In this document: positions 53,974 through 62,551 of the stretch, piece after piece
Numbering within the stretch: the first letter of the stretch is position 1
Layout of the letters: every line of letters begins with the position of its first letter
DNA from: Corynebacterium striatum ATCC 6940
GTDB taxonomy: Bacteria; Actinomycetota; Actinomycetes; Mycobacteriales; Mycobacteriaceae
Assembly: GCF_000159135.1 (NCBI RefSeq)
Contig: NZ_GG667531.1
Location: forward strand, 130,263-194,262
DNA length: 64,000 nucleotides
Reading direction: 5' to 3'
Position numbers and translations under genes: made by a program
Notes under the pieces: generated by a model
What the model was told of the DNA's origin: nothing
The model's database searches: none
What the model saw: the letters and a program-made list of their open reading frames with translations, nothing else

Positions 53974-54039
53974 AATAAGGCGCCCTCGGCCACCCTCGCT
54001 ACTTTAAGGGTGGCTGACAGGGCGCCTTATTTGGTTTTT
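53974..54039. terminator. Long bidirectional terminator hairpin
   Basis: AATAAGGCGCCCT (53974-53986) pairs perfectly with AGGGCGCCTTATT (54019-54031), and inside it GCCACCCT pairs with AGGGTGGC, giving about 21 base pairs. TTTTT follows at 54035-54039. It lies between the convergent siderophore-interacting protein gene and the small membrane protein gene. Confidence 0.92.
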
Positions 54040-55849: not shown

Positions 55850-56881
55850 ATGCGCCTTGCTGTACTTACCTCCGGCGGCGACTGCCCCGGACTGAATGCT
55901 GTTATCCGCGCGGTCGTTCGCACCGCTTCCAACGAATTTGGCTCCACCGTCGTGGGCTACGAGGACGGATGGGTAGGCCTCATGGAGGACCGCCGTCGCG
56001 ATCTTTACGACGATGCCGAGATCGACCGTATCCTCCTGCGAGGCGGTACCATCCTCGGCACGGGTCGCCTGCACCCAGACAAGTTCAAGGCTGGGCTGGA
56101 CACCATCAAGACCAACATGGCGGATGCGGGTGTTGACGCATTGGTCGCCATCGGTGGCGAGGGAACGCTCAAGGGCGCCAAGTGGCTGTCCGACAACGGA
56201 ATCCCGGTTATCGGCGTTCCGAAGACCATTGATAACGACGTTAACGCTACGGACTACACCTTTGGTTTCGATACCGCAGTATCCGTGGCTACTGACGCTA
56301 TCGACCGCCTGCACACCACTGCTGAGTCCCATGACCGTATCCTCATCGTCGAGGTCATGGGCCGTCACGTGGGTTGGATCGCATTGCATGCCGGCATGGC
56401 TGGTGGCGCTCATTACACGGTTATCCCAGAGGTTCCATTTGACATCGCTGAGATCACCAAAGCTATGGAGCGCCGCTTCCAGATGGGCGAGAAGTACGGA
56501 ATCATCTGCGTGGCTGAGGGTGCGCTGCCGAAGGAAGGCACCATGGAGTTCGAGGAAGGCGGGGTAGACCAGTTCGGTCACCAGACCTTCAACGGCATTG
56601 GCCAAGTCATCGGCGATGAAATCAAGAAGCGTACGGGCTACGACGTTCGTACCACCGTTCTTGGCCACATCCAGCGTGGCGGTACGCCGACTGCCTACGA
56701 CCGCGTTCTGGCTACCCGTTACGGCGTGCACGCCGCTCGTGCCGCTCACGAGGGCAAGTCCGGTATGTGTGTCGCTTTGCATGGCGAGAACATCGATCTT
56801 GTTCCGCTCGAAGAGGCAGTGGGCAAGCTTAAGACGGTTCCGCCAAAGCGTTATGCCAATGCCCAAGCGTTGTTTGGCTAG
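55850..56881 (+). CDS. pfkA: 6-phosphofructokinase
   Basis: Phosphorylates fructose-6-phosphate, the committed step of glycolysis. The 343 residues have [13 protein letters not shown] at the N terminus, GGEGTLKGA (102-110), the catalytic [11 protein letters not shown] (124-134) and EVMGRHVGW. Gly105 corresponds to Gly104 of E. coli PFK, which favours ATP as donor (pyrophosphate enzymes have Asp). Lys125 is seen in both classes. It is followed by a terminator with a duplicated arm. Confidence 0.95.
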
Positions 56882-56891
56882 ATAGGACGCA

Positions 56892-56925
56892 TATAAAAAT
56901 GTCACCGCTATAAAAATGTCACCGC
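56892..56925 (+). repeat. 17-base perfect tandem repeat that duplicates a terminator arm
   Basis: TATAAAAATGTCACCGC occurs back to back at 56892-56908 and 56909-56925. Either copy can pair with the single complementary arm GCGGTGACATTTTT at 56932-56945. Confidence 0.93.
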
Positions 56926-56945
56926 GCCTGTGCGGTGACATTTTT
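56912..56945 (+). terminator. Rho-independent terminator after pfkA
   Basis: AAAAATGTCACCGC (56912-56925) and GCGGTGACATTTTT (56932-56945) form a perfect 14-base-pair stem with loop GCCTGT. The U-tract is the 3' part of the stem itself. Because it is A-rich on the left, it could also work on the other strand. Confidence 0.9.
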
Positions 56946-57032
56946 CGTTTTGCCTAGAAGCGGAATCGAGGTAGTGCACGGGCAGCTTATCGGCCACCCT
57001 AGGGGAATGCATGCGCGTTCGTGGCTTCATAC

Positions 57033-57038
57033 TAAGAT
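57033..57038 (+). promoter_or_regulatory. Candidate -10 box for gatB
   Basis: TAAGAT ends 7 bases before ATG 57046; no ribosome site is seen before that codon. Confidence 0.45.
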
Positions 57039-57045
57039 GGCACCC

Positions 57046-58551
57046 ATGACTGCTGCGATGTATGACCTGATGGACTACGACGAGGTCCTTGAAAAGTTTG
57101 AACCCGTGATGGGTATGGAAGTTCACGTGGAGCTCAACACGGAGACCAAGATGTTTTCGACATCGCCGACGAACTTCAATGCGGCTCCTAACTCCAACGT
57201 AGACCCAGTTTCCTTGGGTCTGCCGGGCGCACTGCCGGTTGTGAACTCTAAGGGCGTCGAAGGCGCTATCAAGATTGGTCTCGCGCTCAACTGCAAGATT
57301 GCTGAATCTTCGCGCTTTGCTCGTAAGAACTACTTCTACCCGGACCAGCCAAAGAACTACCAGATTTCCCAGTACGATGAGCCTATCGCGTACGACGGTT
57401 ACCTAGACGTCGTGCTGGAGGATGGCACTGAGTGGCGTGTGGAGATCGAGCGCGCACACATGGAGGAAGATACCGGCAAGCTGACCCACATCGGTGGCGC
57501 TACCGGCCGTATCCATGGTGCGACGAGCTCCCTGGTTGACTGCAACCGTGCAGGCATCCCGCTTATTGAGATCGTCACCAAGCCGATCATTGGTGCGGGC
57601 GAGCGCGCCCCAGAGGTAGCCAAGGCATATGTTTCTGCACTTCGCGAGCTCGTCGCAGCGCTCGGCGTTTCTGACGCGCGCATGGACCAGGGCTCGATGC
57701 GTGTGGACTCCAACCTTTCCCTGCGCCCGATTGGCCAGGAGGAGTTTGGTACCCGTACCGAGACCAAGAACATCAACTCGCTGAAGTCCGTCGAGCAGGC
57801 AGTGCGCTTCGAGATGCAGCGCCAGGCTCAGGTCATCACCGACGGCGGCAAGATCGTGCAGGAGACCCGCCACTACCAAGAAGCTGACGGATCCACCTCT
57901 AAGGGCCGTCCGAAGGAGACCGCTGAGGACTACCGCTACTTCAACGATCCGGATCTTCCGCCGGTTATTGTCTCCCGTGACTGGGTCGAAGAGATCCGCA
58001 AGACCCTTCCGGAGATGCCGTGGATTCGCCGCGCCCGTATTCAAGAGGAGTGGGGCCTTAAGGATGAGGAGATGCGCGACCTGGTAAACGCCGGTGCGCT
58101 TGACCTTATCGTCGCTACTGCCGAAGCCGGTGCAAAGCCGGACGAGGCTCGTTCTTGGTGGGTTTCTTACCTGACCGGTAAGGCGAACGAGGCCGGTATC
58201 GAGCTGGCCGAGCTCGCAATCACCCCGGAGCAGGTCGCACGCGTTGTGGCTTTGGTTAACGAGGGCAAGCTGACGAATAAGCTTGCTCGCCAGGCTGTCG
58301 ACGGCGTCTTGGCAGGCGAGGGTGACGTTGACGAGGTCGTCGCAAAGCGCGGGCTCGAGGTCGTGCGTGACGACGGTGCCATCGAGGCAGCCGTGGACGA
58401 GGCACTTGCCGCTAACCCAGACATCGTTGAGAAGTACAAGGCCGGCAACACCAAGGTCACCGGCGCAATCGTGGGTGCAGTCATGAAGGCCACCCGCGGT
58501 AAGGCTGACCCGGCACAGGTCAACAAGCTGATTGCGGAGAAGCTTAAGTAA
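57046..58551 (+). CDS. gatB: Asp/Glu-tRNA amidotransferase subunit B
   Basis: GatB binds the misacylated tRNA and phosphorylates its side chain for transamidation with ammonia from GatA. The 501 residues have the cradle domain signature [13 protein letters not shown] near 24-36, [19 protein letters not shown] near 85, [16 protein letters not shown] near 165, and a helical YqeY-like tail. Start ATG 57046 follows TAAGAT by 7 bases; the frame is open upstream. It has its own promoter, 3.9 kb from gatCA. Confidence 0.96.
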
Positions 58552-58580
58552 ATAACTGGGTGCCTTTGCACCGTCGCTAC

Positions 58581-58637
58581 ATGGGGACGATTTCCATTAA
58601 GCGCCGATAATGAAAATTGGCGTAGGATCGTCCCCAT
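58581..58637. promoter_or_regulatory. 11-base perfect inverted repeat around the alcohol dehydrogenase promoter
   Basis: ATGGGGACGAT (58581-58591) and ATCGTCCCCAT (58627-58637) are exact reverse complements with 35 bases between. The right arm overlaps the -10 (TAGGAT, 58623-58628) and reaches the first two bases of the start codon. If transcription starts near the ATG, the left arm is not in the RNA, so the repeat would act in DNA, as an operator pair. Confidence 0.6.
58623..58628 (+). promoter_or_regulatory. Candidate -10 box for the alcohol dehydrogenase gene
   Basis: TAGGAT ends 7 bases before ATG 58636; there is no ribosome site (TCGTCCCC precedes the ATG). Confidence 0.5.
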
Positions 58638-59688
58638 GCCTATTAAGACAAAAGCTCTGCAAAAGACCGCGCCCGATGCGCCTTTCAAGGTAGTAGATAT
58701 CGAGCGCCGCGATCCTCGTGAAGACGACGTTGTCATCGATATCAAGGCTGCTGGCATCTGTCACTCCGATATCCACACCATTCGCAACGAGTGGGGAGAG
58801 GCCCACTTTCCGCTGACGGTGGGCCATGAAATCGCGGGCGTAGTTTCCGCAGTCGGAGATAAGGTCACCAAGTTTAAGGTCGGCGACCGTGTGGGCGTTG
58901 GCTGCCTCGTGAACTCCTGCGGCGAGTGCGAGCAGTGCCAGGCCGGAATGGAACAAAACTGCCTTAATGGTGGCGTCGGAACGTATAACTCTAAGGACGT
59001 GGACGGCACCATCACTCAAGGTGGTTACGCCCAGAAAGTCGTGGTTAATGAGAACTTCGTCCTGAACATCCCTGACTCCCTTGACTTCGACGTCGCGGCA
59101 CCTTTGCTGTGCGCAGGTATTACTACGTATTCGCCGCTGGCTCGCTGGAACGTGCAGGAAGGCGACAAGGTCGCGATTGTGGGCCTTGGCGGTTTGGGCC
59201 ACATGGGCGTCCAGATTGCTGTAGCCAAGGGTGCTGACGTAACTGTTCTTTCTCGTACCTCCCGAAAGGAGAAGGAAGCAAAGGAACTTGGTGCGGCGCG
59301 CATTCTTGCGACGAATGAAGAGGAAGACTTCTTCAAGAACCATCGCGGCGAGTTCGACTTCATCCTGTCTACGATTTCTGCGCAATACGACCTAGAGGCT
59401 TACCTAGGGTTGCTGAAACCACGCGGCATCATGTCCGTTGTTGGCTTGCCACCAGAGGCGCTGTCGCTGCGTATGAACCGCATCATTAGCGGCGGCAAGG
59501 TGCTCACCGGTAACAACATCGGCGGCATTGCGGAAACCCAGGAGATGCTGGATTTCTGTGCCGAACACGGCTTTGGCGCAGTGATTGAAAAGGTCAGCGT
59601 CGACGAGGTCGATGCGGCGTATGACCGCGTGGTCGCGGGTGATGTGAAGTTCCGGTTCGTTATCGATACGGAGACTTTCCCGGAGTAG
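58636..59688 (+). CDS. Zinc-dependent alcohol dehydrogenase (cinnamyl alcohol dehydrogenase/YahK type)
   Basis: A 350-residue medium-chain dehydrogenase/reductase. The catalytic zinc ligands are Cys42 in GICHSD, His64-Glu65 in VGHEIAG and Cys159. The structural zinc is held by Cys95, Cys98, Cys101 and Cys109. The nucleotide loop is GLGGLGHMG (183-191); SRTSRK after the second strand suggests NADPH. The family reduces aldehydes broadly. It is a single gene with its own promoter inside a large inverted repeat, so it is probably induced, perhaps by aldehydes (inference). Confidence 0.92.
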   Translation: MPIKTKALQKTAPDAPFKVVDIERRDPREDDVVIDIKAAGICHSDIHTIRNEWGEAHFPLTVGHEIAGVVSAVGDKVTKFKVGDRVGVGCLVNSCGECEQCQAGMEQNCLNGGVGTYNSKDVDGTITQGGYAQKVVVNENFVLNIPDSLDFDVAAPLLCAGITTYSPLARWNVQEGDKVAIVGLGGLGHMGVQIAVAKGADVTVLSRTSRKEKEAKELGAARILATNEEEDFFKNHRGEFDFILSTISAQYDLEAYLGLLKPRGIMSVVGLPPEALSLRMNRIISGGKVLTGNNIGGIAETQEMLDFCAEHGFGAVIEKVSVDEVDAAYDRVVAGDVKFRFVIDTETFPE

Positions 59689-59840
59689 GAGCTGGCCTTG
59701 GTGCATTCCCCACGGGGTGAGGTACGTCATGCTTTTTATGGAAACGGCGTAATCTCACCTCGTTCTTTAACGTCATAACGTGCGGCTTTCCGTATCCTGG
59801 AAAGGGACTATCGTCTATCAAGTAAGGCATTGAGACACCC

Positions 59841-61271
59841 GTGTCTTTGAAAAATATCCTGTCCATTTCTTTGTCCTTCGTTGGACTCCTTGTCGGTGCT
59901 GGTTTTGCCACTGGCCAGGAAGTCGTGCAGTACTTCACGTCCTTTGGCCTGTCCGGCGTGTGGGGAATTGTTGTCGCCGGCATCGTTATGACGCTTGCGG
60001 GCACCGTGTTCCTTCAGCTGGGAAGCTACTTCCATGCTTCTGAGCACAATCAGGTCTTCCGCGAGGTAACTCACCCATTCATCTCGCGAATCCTTGACGT
60101 GGCTGTCATTTTGACGCTCTTTGCCGTGGGCTTCGTGATGCTCGCCGGCGCGGGTTCCAACATGGAACAACAATTCGGCTGGCCTGCTTGGGTTGGTTCT
60201 TTGCTGATGCTGGTCATGGTGATTGCCGTGGGCATGATGGACGTCAGCAAGGTTTCCCAGGTGATTAGCTTGCTGACTCCGACCATCATCATTGCGGTCC
60301 TCGGTGTTGGTATCTATACAGCGCTGAATATGCCGGCAGACCCGAGCGCGGCCATCGCTGCATCCGCAGAAATCGAGTCACCGATCTCTAACTGGCTGGT
60401 ATCCGCGCTCAACTACAACGGTCTGGCTCTGATTCTGGCCGTGTCCATGTCCCTTGTTATTGGCGGCGACAATATTAGCCCGCGTGAGGCCGGCTGGGGC
60501 GGCGTCGTCGGCGGCGCTCTCTATTCGGTACTCATGGGCGTTGCCGGGTTTGCATTGCTCATGAACTCCCGAATGCTTGGGGATTCTGATATTCCGATGT
60601 TGACCTTGGTGGATTCCATTCACCCAGTGCTCGGCGTGATCATGGCGGTCATCATTTATCTGATGATCTTTAATACCGCGATCGGAATGTTCTACGCCCT
60701 GGGTAAGCGCCTTTCCTCCGGACATGAAGCCCGCTACCGCATCATCTTTAGCGTTGGTTGTGTTGCTGGTTTCGCGGTGTCCTTCGCCGGCTTTAAGACG
60801 CTGATGCAATACGTGTACCCGGTTCTTGGTTACATGGGCATTGTCCTAGTCTTCATCTTGGCGGTGGCGTGGCTCAAGTCGCTCGGCCAGATTAAGGATG
60901 AGGGCATACGTCGTGAGCGAATCCGCGCACTGCTGCACCTGAAGCTGCACCCGGACAAGGAATATGATGCGGAGCGCTTTGACGACGAGCTCGGCCAGCA
61001 CATCGTTGACTCCAACATGGAGGATGAGGCGCTTTTCGACGACCTTGCTTACGAGGTCGCCGAGTCTCTCGACAGCGATGACGACGTTGATTTCGATAAG
61101 GAAGTGTGGGAGGAAAACCGCAACGATGCTTCCTTCTATACCGAGCGTGACGCTGTAGAAACAGATCGCACGGAGGAAGAGATCAAGGCCTGGATCGAAG
61201 AAACGGGCGCATCCGGAGACCCGGAGGAACCCGTTGAAGAAGCTACCGAAGGGGAAGAAGTCGCGAAATAG
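59841..61271 (+). CDS. YkvI-family membrane protein with acidic C-terminal tail
   Basis: A 476-residue protein. The first 340 residues hold about 10 membrane helices and match the YkvI family, distant relatives of LeuT-fold transporters: LLVGAGFATGQEVVQYF near 16-32 is the broken first helix, and SLVIGGDNISPREAGWGG lies near 210. The C-terminal 130 residues are soluble and strongly acidic (Asp/Glu-rich from about 365), which is unusual for the family. GTG 59841 has no clear ribosome site. The substrate is unknown. Its stop is 5 bases from the stop of the Nramp-like gene on the other strand. Confidence 0.75.
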   Translation: MSLKNILSISLSFVGLLVGAGFATGQEVVQYFTSFGLSGVWGIVVAGIVMTLAGTVFLQLGSYFHASEHNQVFREVTHPFISRILDVAVILTLFAVGFVMLAGAGSNMEQQFGWPAWVGSLLMLVMVIAVGMMDVSKVSQVISLLTPTIIIAVLGVGIYTALNMPADPSAAIAASAEIESPISNWLVSALNYNGLALILAVSMSLVIGGDNISPREAGWGGVVGGALYSVLMGVAGFALLMNSRMLGDSDIPMLTLVDSIHPVLGVIMAVIIYLMIFNTAIGMFYALGKRLSSGHEARYRIIFSVGCVAGFAVSFAGFKTLMQYVYPVLGYMGIVLVFILAVAWLKSLGQIKDEGIRRERIRALLHLKLHPDKEYDAERFDDELGQHIVDSNMEDEALFDDLAYEVAESLDSDDDVDFDKEVWEENRNDASFYTERDAVETDRTEEEIKAWIEETGASGDPEEPVEEATEGEEVAK

Positions 61272-61276
61272 CTTAA

Positions 61277-62551
61277 CTAGCCGCCAACGAAGATCTTGAT
61301 GAGCTCGTTGACGCAGATATATACAAACGCCGCCGAGATAATGGCCATCAACGTGTTGACGAACCAACCGTTGCGCCACTCGCGCGGCGTGTGCCTTGTG
61401 TTGAGCAATATCAATAGGGTGAGGCCGAGGAATGGCATGAAGAATGCGCCGAGGACACCGTAGGCAATAACGAGTGCCGTGGGCTTGCCCAGGAAGAGCA
61501 GCAGCATCGGTGGGAAGGTAAGCCACAAGACGAACCAGCGGTAGTACTTGCCACCCATCTGCGTATCGGGGTGTTCCTGGGGCAGCTTTTTGATGTGCCC
61601 GACGTAGTCGGCGAACATCATGGAAACGCCGTTCCACACGCCAAGAACGGAAGACAGCGCGGCGGCCCAGAATCCAATCAAGAAGACCGGTGCCATGAAG
61701 CTGCCATAGCGGTCACGGAGCACGTCAGCGAGATCAATCAGTCCCTTATCGCCCTTGGAAACAGCGATGTTGGCCGAGTAAAGCAAGTCGCCGCCGATGA
61801 TGAGCATTGCAGCAACAAAGATGCCGGTGACCACGTAAGCCACGGTGTTGTCGAGGCGCATGACGCGCATCCACGGAGGGGAGTCCCATCCTTTCTCATG
61901 CAGCCAATAGCCATAAGCGGCAAGTGTGATTGTGCCACCCACACCACCGGCAAGAGAGAGCACATAAACGAATGAGCCCTCTGGCAGCGTTGGTACCAAG
62001 CCCTTGAGGATTTCTCCGATGTTGCTTAGCGATAGGCAGGCGATTCCCACCACGGTGAGGAACATGATGCCCACCAAGACGGCGATGGTCTTCTCGAACA
62101 TTCGGTATTGGCCGGCCCAGGTTAATCCGAAGCCGATGAGGCCGGAGATGACGGCCCAGGCTACGAGTGGGACTTGCGGGATGAGCGCGTGGAGAGCCAT
62201 GCCGGTGGCGCTCATGGCGGCGGCACCGTACACAAATCCCCAGATGATGATGTAAGGGGCGAAGTACCAGGAGGTCCATTTACCGAGGGATGACCAACCA
62301 TGGAACATGGTGTTGCCGGTGGCCAGGGTGTAGCGCCCGACGCCCTCGACCAAGACGATCTTCATGATGGTGCCCGCGATGCAGGCCCAGAGAAGCGCGA
62401 AGCCGTACTTCTGACCGGCGATGAGCGTGGCGACCAAGTCACCAGAACCAACGCCGGTAGCGGCGGCGACGAGGCCAGGTCCGATTACTTTCCACTTCGG
62501 TACGTCCATATGCCCACTAGCGGGAGGTGATGAGGATGCGGGGGTGCTCAT
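61277..62551 (-). CDS. Nramp-like transporter lacking the canonical metal-site motifs
   Basis: A 424-residue protein with 11 membrane segments and the overall Nramp fold. The TM1 metal motif DPGN is replaced by GSGD (35-38, in TGVGSGDLVATLIAG), and the TM6 MPH motif is missing (GGTITLAAYGYWLHE near 208-222). Transport of manganese or iron in the usual way is therefore doubtful; magnesium-type or non-metal substrates are alternatives. CAGGAAGG precedes the ATG, partly inside an inverted repeat. It is convergent with the YkvI-like gene. Confidence 0.7.
   Translation of the reverse strand: MSTPASSSPPASGHMDVPKWKVIGPGLVAAATGVGSGDLVATLIAGQKYGFALLWACIAGTIMKIVLVEGVGRYTLATGNTMFHGWSSLGKWTSWYFAPYIIIWGFVYGAAAMSATGMALHALIPQVPLVAWAVISGLIGFGLTWAGQYRMFEKTIAVLVGIMFLTVVGIACLSLSNIGEILKGLVPTLPEGSFVYVLSLAGGVGGTITLAAYGYWLHEKGWDSPPWMRVMRLDNTVAYVVTGIFVAAMLIIGGDLLYSANIAVSKGDKGLIDLADVLRDRYGSFMAPVFLIGFWAAALSSVLGVWNGVSMMFADYVGHIKKLPQEHPDTQMGGKYYRWFVLWLTFPPMLLLFLGKPTALVIAYGVLGAFFMPFLGLTLLILLNTRHTPREWRNGWFVNTLMAIISAAFVYICVNELIKIFVGG

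Follow-up and report, generated by a model that had tools for sequence, protein, structure and literature searches.

A perfect inverted repeat enclosing the -10 box and start codon of a putatively leaderless alcohol dehydrogenase gene in Corynebacterium striatum may form an RNA hairpin that silences read-through transcripts

In Corynebacterium striatum ATCC 6940, a perfect inverted repeat surrounds the promoter of a gene encoding a zinc-dependent alcohol dehydrogenase (ADH), which lies 84 bases behind the stop codon of the codirectional gene gatB. We give roughly even chances to the interpretation that this repeat acts as an RNA hairpin insulating a leaderless gene from transcription that enters from gatB. 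RNA polymerase starting at the ADH gene's own promoter, whose -10 box lies inside the hairpin, would produce an mRNA that begins at the A of the ATG, carries the right arm alone, and is open to translation. RNA polymerase arriving from gatB would copy both arms, and the resulting RNA would fold (about -32 kcal/mol), lock the AUG and the bases preceding it, and leave the read-through untranslated. The fold would also pair an AGGA in the -10 box, a possible Shine-Dalgarno sequence 8 bases away, and the hairpin may contribute to ending or protecting the gatB message. Zur, acting at a predicted overlapping site, probably tunes initiation at the ADH gene's own promoter. We infer the start site, the read-through, the silencing, and the Zur binding from the repeat, its predicted fold, compensatory changes in related species, a conserved leaderless motif, and the recurrence of the layout at other genes. 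Even in the absence of a hairpin, translation from a leaderless AUG embedded in a long RNA may be inefficient.

Table 1. Features around the ADH promoter, in positions of the analyzed 64,000-nucleotide stretch
Feature	Position	Strand	Sequence	Basis and remarks
gatB, codirectional upstream gene	56935..58551	+		ORF list, profile match
Weak small hairpin after gatB	58559..58572	+		Fold; no T-run in + direction
Predicted Zur-type 21-bp site	58579..58599	+	ACATGGGGACGATTTCCATTA	Matrix score 13.6 bits; center -47 from A of ATG
Left arm	58580..58591	+	CATGGGGACGAT	Repeat search, RNA fold; overlaps Zur-type site
Nested inner stem, 5' side	58601..58608	+	GCGCCGAT	RNA fold
Extra Zur-like half site	58608..58617	+	TAATGAAAAT	Read from sequence, no separate score; G036 has TAATGAAAAC
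Nested inner stem, 3' side	58616..58623	+	ATTGGCGT	RNA fold
Likely -10 hexamer	58623..58628	+	TAGGAT	7 bases before ATG; leaderless layout conserved in orthologues
Right arm	58627..58638	+	ATCGTCCCCATG	Repeat search, RNA fold; includes whole ATG (58636-58638)
ADH, zinc-dependent alcohol dehydrogenase / aldehyde reductase family gene	58636..59688	+		ORF list, profile matches

The repeat, which a sequence-only reading of the whole 64,000-nucleotide stretch (the window) had described as a perfect 11-base repeat, is one base pair longer, being perfect over 12 bases with 35 bases between the arms (Table 1). The right arm, said there to cover the -10 box and touch the start codon, overlaps only the last two bases of TAGGAT, and the whole ATG lies inside it. 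When positions 58575-58645 were folded as RNA, the structure reached -32.4 kcal/mol (z = -5.66), a stability equaled by 0 of 200 dinucleotide shuffles, and contained a second, nested stem. The predicted pairing probability is 1.00 for the AUG and for the 7 bases before it. Among 104 leaderless-like starts lying at least 25 bases from a neighbor in 864 kb of the genome (two 400-kb stretches and the window), the ADH hairpin has the third most stable fold and ranks second among strong hairpins with a paired start codon. The position of the hairpin is therefore unusual. Its length by itself is not decisive: perfect repeat pairs with arms of at least 11 bases and loops of 3-60 bases number six in the window (two share one arm), compared with 3 altogether in six first-order Markov copies of the window (0.5 per 64 kb), so that long perfect repeats are enriched in the window and the one studied here is not alone. 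Rfam gave 0 matches in 58300-58900 up to an E-value of 5. Elsewhere in the window, a perfect 13-base inverted repeat with a 32-base interior (53974-54031) has a layout like that of the ADH repeat, and two direct copies and one inverted copy of AAAAATGTCACCGC (56895-56945) form a terminator-like structure after the stop, at 56881, of the ORF preceding gatB.

The ADH product has 350 amino acids and is a zinc-binding alcohol dehydrogenase whose nearest NCBIfam model is the aldehyde reductase Ahr, matched below the cut-off of that model. We take its probable orthologue in C. glutamicum to be FudC (NCgl0324). FudC is an aldehyde reductase (PMC9133326). The loci of two large genomes, G178 and G089 (78-79% matches), differ from the window locus: they start with GTG, their best Zur-type site is not near -47, and gatB is not a neighbor. 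The gatB profile match begins at residue 41, and the true start of gatB may lie further in. As the sequence-only reading had stated, no regulator gene is adjacent: gatB is the upstream neighbor, and the ADH gene is followed by a 476-aa ORF without a Pfam match, an Nramp-type gene, and a LysE-type gene. The Nramp-type metal transporter gene (61277-62551) is two genes downstream of the ADH gene.

We identified ADH orthologues by a protein search over 151 genomes of the genus and a DNA search over 242, and used 63 orthologous loci; orthologues in genomes covered by the DNA search alone may be missed. One further protein, in G026 (75% identity), was kept outside the 63, as were the results of a related-locus search of genome contigs (80 loci, one of them Corynebacterium). 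At the aligned place, G032 has no start codon and G212, G115, and G030 read TTG. Two loci were aligned by hand shifts of 3 bases (G153) and 1 base (G205), and the protein tree has 61 rows, without G205 and G115. In G205 (L060), the frame at the ADH start is shifted by one base relative to the rest of the gene. The ADH gene of G036 (L010) has an in-frame TAG at codon 4 in an otherwise 92% identical ADH, which could reflect a pseudogene, another start, or a sequencing error.

The promoter layout of these orthologues is that of a leaderless gene. TANNNT occurs 6-7 bases before the start codon in 55 of the 63 loci, compared with a rate of 0.029 at offsets further up, and in 33 of 34 gatB-linked loci. 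Because the conserved layout is leaderless, the ADH gene's own mRNA should, by its sequence, begin at the A of the ATG and lack the left arm. The sequence-only reading had also considered an RNA hairpin hiding the start codon. This second reading is supported with one modification: the predicted fold pairs the AUG, but the folding RNA would be the gatB read-through and not the ADH gene's own message, for the same reason. Leaderless transcripts are common in C. glutamicum, where 707 of 2,147 mRNAs, about a third, are of this kind (PMC3890552). A second, leadered promoter (GATAAT, 58606-58611) was considered and rejected: G036 reads GGTAAT, and no such hexamer was seen by eye at that place in the other gatB-linked loci.

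Comparison with orthologues shows that pairing is retained while the arms change. The nearest relative, G036 (92% ADH protein identity), has the arms GGGAGCCAT and GTGGTTCCC, where the window counterparts are GGGGACGAT and ATCGTCCCC. Across 22 predicted pairs compared between the C. striatum genome (G000) and G036, 13 are identical, 3 carry compensating changes on both sides, 4 have a change on one side that preserves pairing, and 2 are broken; in the inner stem, one pair is compensated and one is broken. Slid controls for the same two genomes had zero pairs changed on both sides. A column-shuffle test of their covariation, which with two sequences has little power, reached the observed score in 78 of 500 shuffles. 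Nine further species, with spacers of 55-68 bases between gatB and the ADH gene, have another hairpin that spans the -10 region and the ATG. All 15 of its pairs form in each of 5 distinct sequences, one pair appearing as C-G, G-U, or A-U, and its covariation score was reached in 53 of 500 column shuffles. The shuffle controls for the ADH hairpin itself are not decisive. When right arms were dealt among the 11 distinct short-spacer loci, the loci's own arms together scored 83 against a mean of 72.7, a value reached in 2 of 2,000 deals; the right arm of G014 pairs no better than shuffles. The sequence-only reading had looked to conservation of the arms upstream of the orthologue to decide its case. 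What is conserved is the pairing, whereas the arm sequences already differ in G036 and differ again in the 55-68-base group. An invertible promoter was also considered and rejected, since the interior is colinear in G036, the one relative compared, and no recombinase was noticed among the neighboring genes.

Leaderless-like starts were also sought in 864 kb of C. striatum sequence and 400 kb from G012. Two further strong masking hairpins were found behind codirectional genes, one at a TIGR03085 gene and one at a COG0523-type GTPase gene. This layout is rare and not general. Masking hairpins of -22 kcal/mol or below occur at 3 of 72 starts behind codirectional neighbors and 2 of 75 behind divergent ones; at -30 kcal/mol or below, a cut chosen after looking, the counts are 3 of 72 and 0 of 75 (P = 0.115). 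A general excess behind codirectional genes is not significant among the sampled starts.

The TIGR03085 hairpin (L195, 13844-13893; G000 C84:393844-393893) has the -10 hexamer TATGCT inside it and the leaderless ATG (start 13880) in its right arm. We examined 30 loci, the 30 best of 97 matched genomes among 111. RNase J is upstream in 30 of 30, and the fold reaches z = -2.5 or below in 28, the exceptions being G086 and G097. The right arm is typically TATGCTGGGG followed by three variable bases before the ATG. Nine kinds of right arm occur, each with a matching left arm at a varying distance, and own arms scored 251 against a mean of 205.8 and a maximum of 221 for dealt arms (0 of 2,000). In most of these loci, codons 2-4 contain a T-run, so this hairpin also resembles a terminator for the RNase J gene. 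No Zur-type site was seen by eye at this hairpin.

The product of the COG0523-type gene matches the CobW and ZigA models, below the cut-off for both. Its hairpin (L247, 1460-1510, G000 C73:4936; L236, G012 C2:145757) covers the start codon and codon 2, reaches into codons 2-3, and wraps a Zur-type site that forms its middle (21.2-28.4 bits in 14 loci, center -15 or -16). Among 30 loci (the 30 best of 43 matched genomes among 111), the hairpin (z = -2.5 or below) is present in 12 of the 14 with a close codirectional neighbor, this genome included, and in 0 of the 16 others (Fisher P = 1e-6, ignoring relatedness). Five of the 30 loci lack a start codon at the aligned place but were folded at that position as well, G043 (z = -2.3) is borderline, and in G000 and G036 the codirectional neighbor is low-scoring and was accepted from reading the G000 frames. 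That upstream gene in this genome (L247, 300-1460) appears split over several frames and is perhaps decayed. In 11 sequences, 92.0% of cells are paired and 3 pairs are changed on both sides. The own-arm test over 14 loci gave 147 of 182 against a mean of 129.7 (0 of 2,000). One slid control scored 0.153 in covariation compared with 0.148 for the hairpin, with far fewer pairs. No T-run follows the hairpin.

The distance between gatB and the ADH gene bears on what the hairpin does. In 13 of the 34 gatB-linked loci, the spacer is 55-91 bases and the part before the operator has weak folds or no room; in the window, the 27 bases after gatB, upstream of the Zur-type site, fold at -7.8 kcal/mol. The promoter hairpin is present in most of these short-spacer loci, with a mean fold over promoter and ATG of -27.5 kcal/mol (n = 13). 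This mean includes G142 and G014 (-13.1 and -15.4 for the promoter part), where the strong hairpin lies over the operator and not the ATG. In these two loci (L029 and L031), this hairpin between gatB and the ADH gene is formed by a long palindrome centered on the Zur-type site, roughly 30-65 bases ahead of the ADH start. In 20 of the 34 loci, where the spacer is 100-160 bases, the part between gatB and the operator folds at -20.8 to -46.1 kcal/mol, with a T-run in most (by eye), and the promoter-region fold is weak (mean -13.0 kcal/mol, n = 20). G052, in the long class, has stable folds without a T-run, and G169, whose spacer is 20 bases long, lacks both hairpin and terminator. We judged spacer structure by folding the spacer, as a simple terminator finder misses imperfect stems. 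The contrast between short and long spacers is clear but counts as few events, because in the protein tree the classes largely follow two clades (support 98/95 for G000, G036, and the nine species, with G169 inside, and 99/97 for the long-spacer clade). G045 falls outside both clades and carries an ATG-masking hairpin of its own, located behind a codirectional gene other than gatB.

The main rival to read-through silencing, and one compatible with it, is that gatB transcription terminates at the hairpin. The hairpin would then be mainly a terminator or 3'-end protector of the gatB message that has been squeezed onto the next promoter, with masking of the ATG as a by-product. We give this explanation a modest chance of being the better account. 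The separate terminator-like folds after gatB in long-spacer orthologues, which short-spacer ones lack, point toward it, as does the TIGR03085 counterpart, with its constant RNase J neighbor and its T-run. In C. glutamicum, among 320 predicted terminators with a clear 3' end, 231 (72.2%) had that end within the first stem (PMC3890552). However, the ADH hairpin is followed by CCTATTAAGAC without a T-run, a terminator scan of 58300-59900 on the + strand found no site, and the COG0523 hairpin likewise lacks a T-run.

A second alternative is that the selected element is DNA, namely a Zur operator with extra symmetry, and that the RNA fold is a by-product. We scored Zur-type sites with a matrix made from four C. 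glutamicum sites that are bound by Zur in vitro (PMC2823685, Table 1). In 33 of 34 gatB-linked loci, and in 35 of all 63 loci, the best Zur-type site has its center at -47; centers from -45 to -47 occur in 41 of 63. This constancy of place favors the operator explanation, as do the strong site in the middle of the COG0523 hairpin and the single Fur-family match in the genome. The best Zur-like box that a pattern search gave for the genome overlaps a ZnuA-family gene in its start region. Several observations argue against the operator explanation. The outer arms vary freely among species with pairing kept, G-U pairs included. The ADH arms are asymmetric about the Zur-type site, and this site is weak in the window, scoring 13.6 bits compared with 16.6-24.1 for the known sites left out in turn; the right half is good and the left half, formed by the hairpin's left arm, is poor. 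The TIGR03085 hairpin has no such site (by eye). Finally, the matrix gives 25.7 bits to the C. glutamicum adhA site, which Zur did not bind in vitro (PMC2823685). We regard it as unlikely that the operator alone accounts for the repeat.

Zur is nevertheless our candidate regulator of the ADH gene. The tight control that the sequence-only reading predicted is plausible, and the putative site overlapping the left arm would be where it is exerted. Judging by sequence and locus order, the adhA of known Corynebacterium Zur regulons apparently belongs to another ADH subfamily than the window gene. Zur together with zinc activates a gene called adhA in C. diphtheriae (PMC6711530), and the COG0523 gene cg0794 is a Zur target in C. 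glutamicum (PMC2823685). The Zur regulons of these two species likewise have 21-bp sites of a 10-1-10 pattern near leaderless promoters, and the window ADH is not among the regulon genes given there (PMC2823685, PMC6711530).

The repeat could also be a product of chance or of mutation, without function, which we consider quite unlikely. Perfect repeats of at least 11 bases are not rare in the window. Template-switch repair perfects imperfect palindromes and would likewise change both arms together. Against this, G-U pairs are retained, and co-varying arms recur at two other leaderless starts. The exact 11-mer of the sequence-only reading occurs 6 times in the genome; 2 of these are the ADH arms, and the other four have no second arm within about 150 bases (by eye). 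Looping out of the promoter by one regulator bound to both arms, which that reading had favored, is highly implausible: the perfect arms do flank the promoter, 47 bases center to center as 12-mers, but arm sequences change between species and the four further 11-mers lack paired arms.

Read-through silencing, the explanation that we prefer, may extend beyond the ADH gene. More tentatively, and with doubts that outweigh our confidence, we suggest that a compact module recurs in corynebacteria and perhaps throughout the actinobacteria. In this module, an upstream hairpin or terminator would overlap with the promoter, the operator, and the leaderless start codon to form a single element, and translation would be confined to internally initiated RNA. 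If this is true, leaderless genes can sit close behind others without leaking. Zur-type sites are found at two of the three hairpin genes (ADH and COG0523 GTPase), and the module would thus guard zinc-responsive genes. The conserved Zur-type site also suggests a possible link between zinc and an aldehyde-reductase-like enzyme. The question of how leaderless genes are kept silent in read-through RNA is rarely raised, and a promoter and start codon enclosed by a hairpin would solve this problem in a few dozen bases. The layout also gives a rule for annotating overlapping starts and terminators. In the titles and abstract openings among the matches listed for leaderless starts, read-through, terminators, hairpins, and known analogues (a search with most subscription journals outside it), we saw no description of a hairpin of this kind that encloses a leaderless promoter and start.

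Related arrangements are known. In IS10 and IS50, read-through RNA folds into a hairpin that covers the initiation region of the transposase gene, and the element's own transcript starts inside the hairpin and lacks one arm. The ADH gene would share both the hairpin in RNA from outside and the own RNA that starts inside without one arm. The difference is that IS10 and IS50 are mobile elements with terminal repeats, and no mobile element is apparent at the ADH gene. Intrinsic terminators of Corynebacterium (PMC3890552) are similar in having a GC-rich hairpin past the stop codon of a gene, whereas the ADH hairpin has no T-run and encloses the -10 box and start codon of the next gene. In phage T4, long early transcripts from upstream hide the start of gene e, and also of soc, 49, and I-TevI, in a helix (PMC3014915). 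A late promoter in the 5' strand of the gene e structure yields RNA without that strand, which is translated, an effect of about 100-fold (PMC3014915). The ADH gene resembles gene e in that the start codon lies in a predicted RNA helix in long transcripts and the putative promoter, as suggested by the conserved TANNNT, would likewise lie inside the structure. In contrast, gene e belongs to a phage early/late switch with Shine-Dalgarno starts, while the ADH gene is on a bacterial chromosome with a putatively leaderless start, a Zur-type site is present at two of the three genes described here, and the silencing is predicted from sequence.
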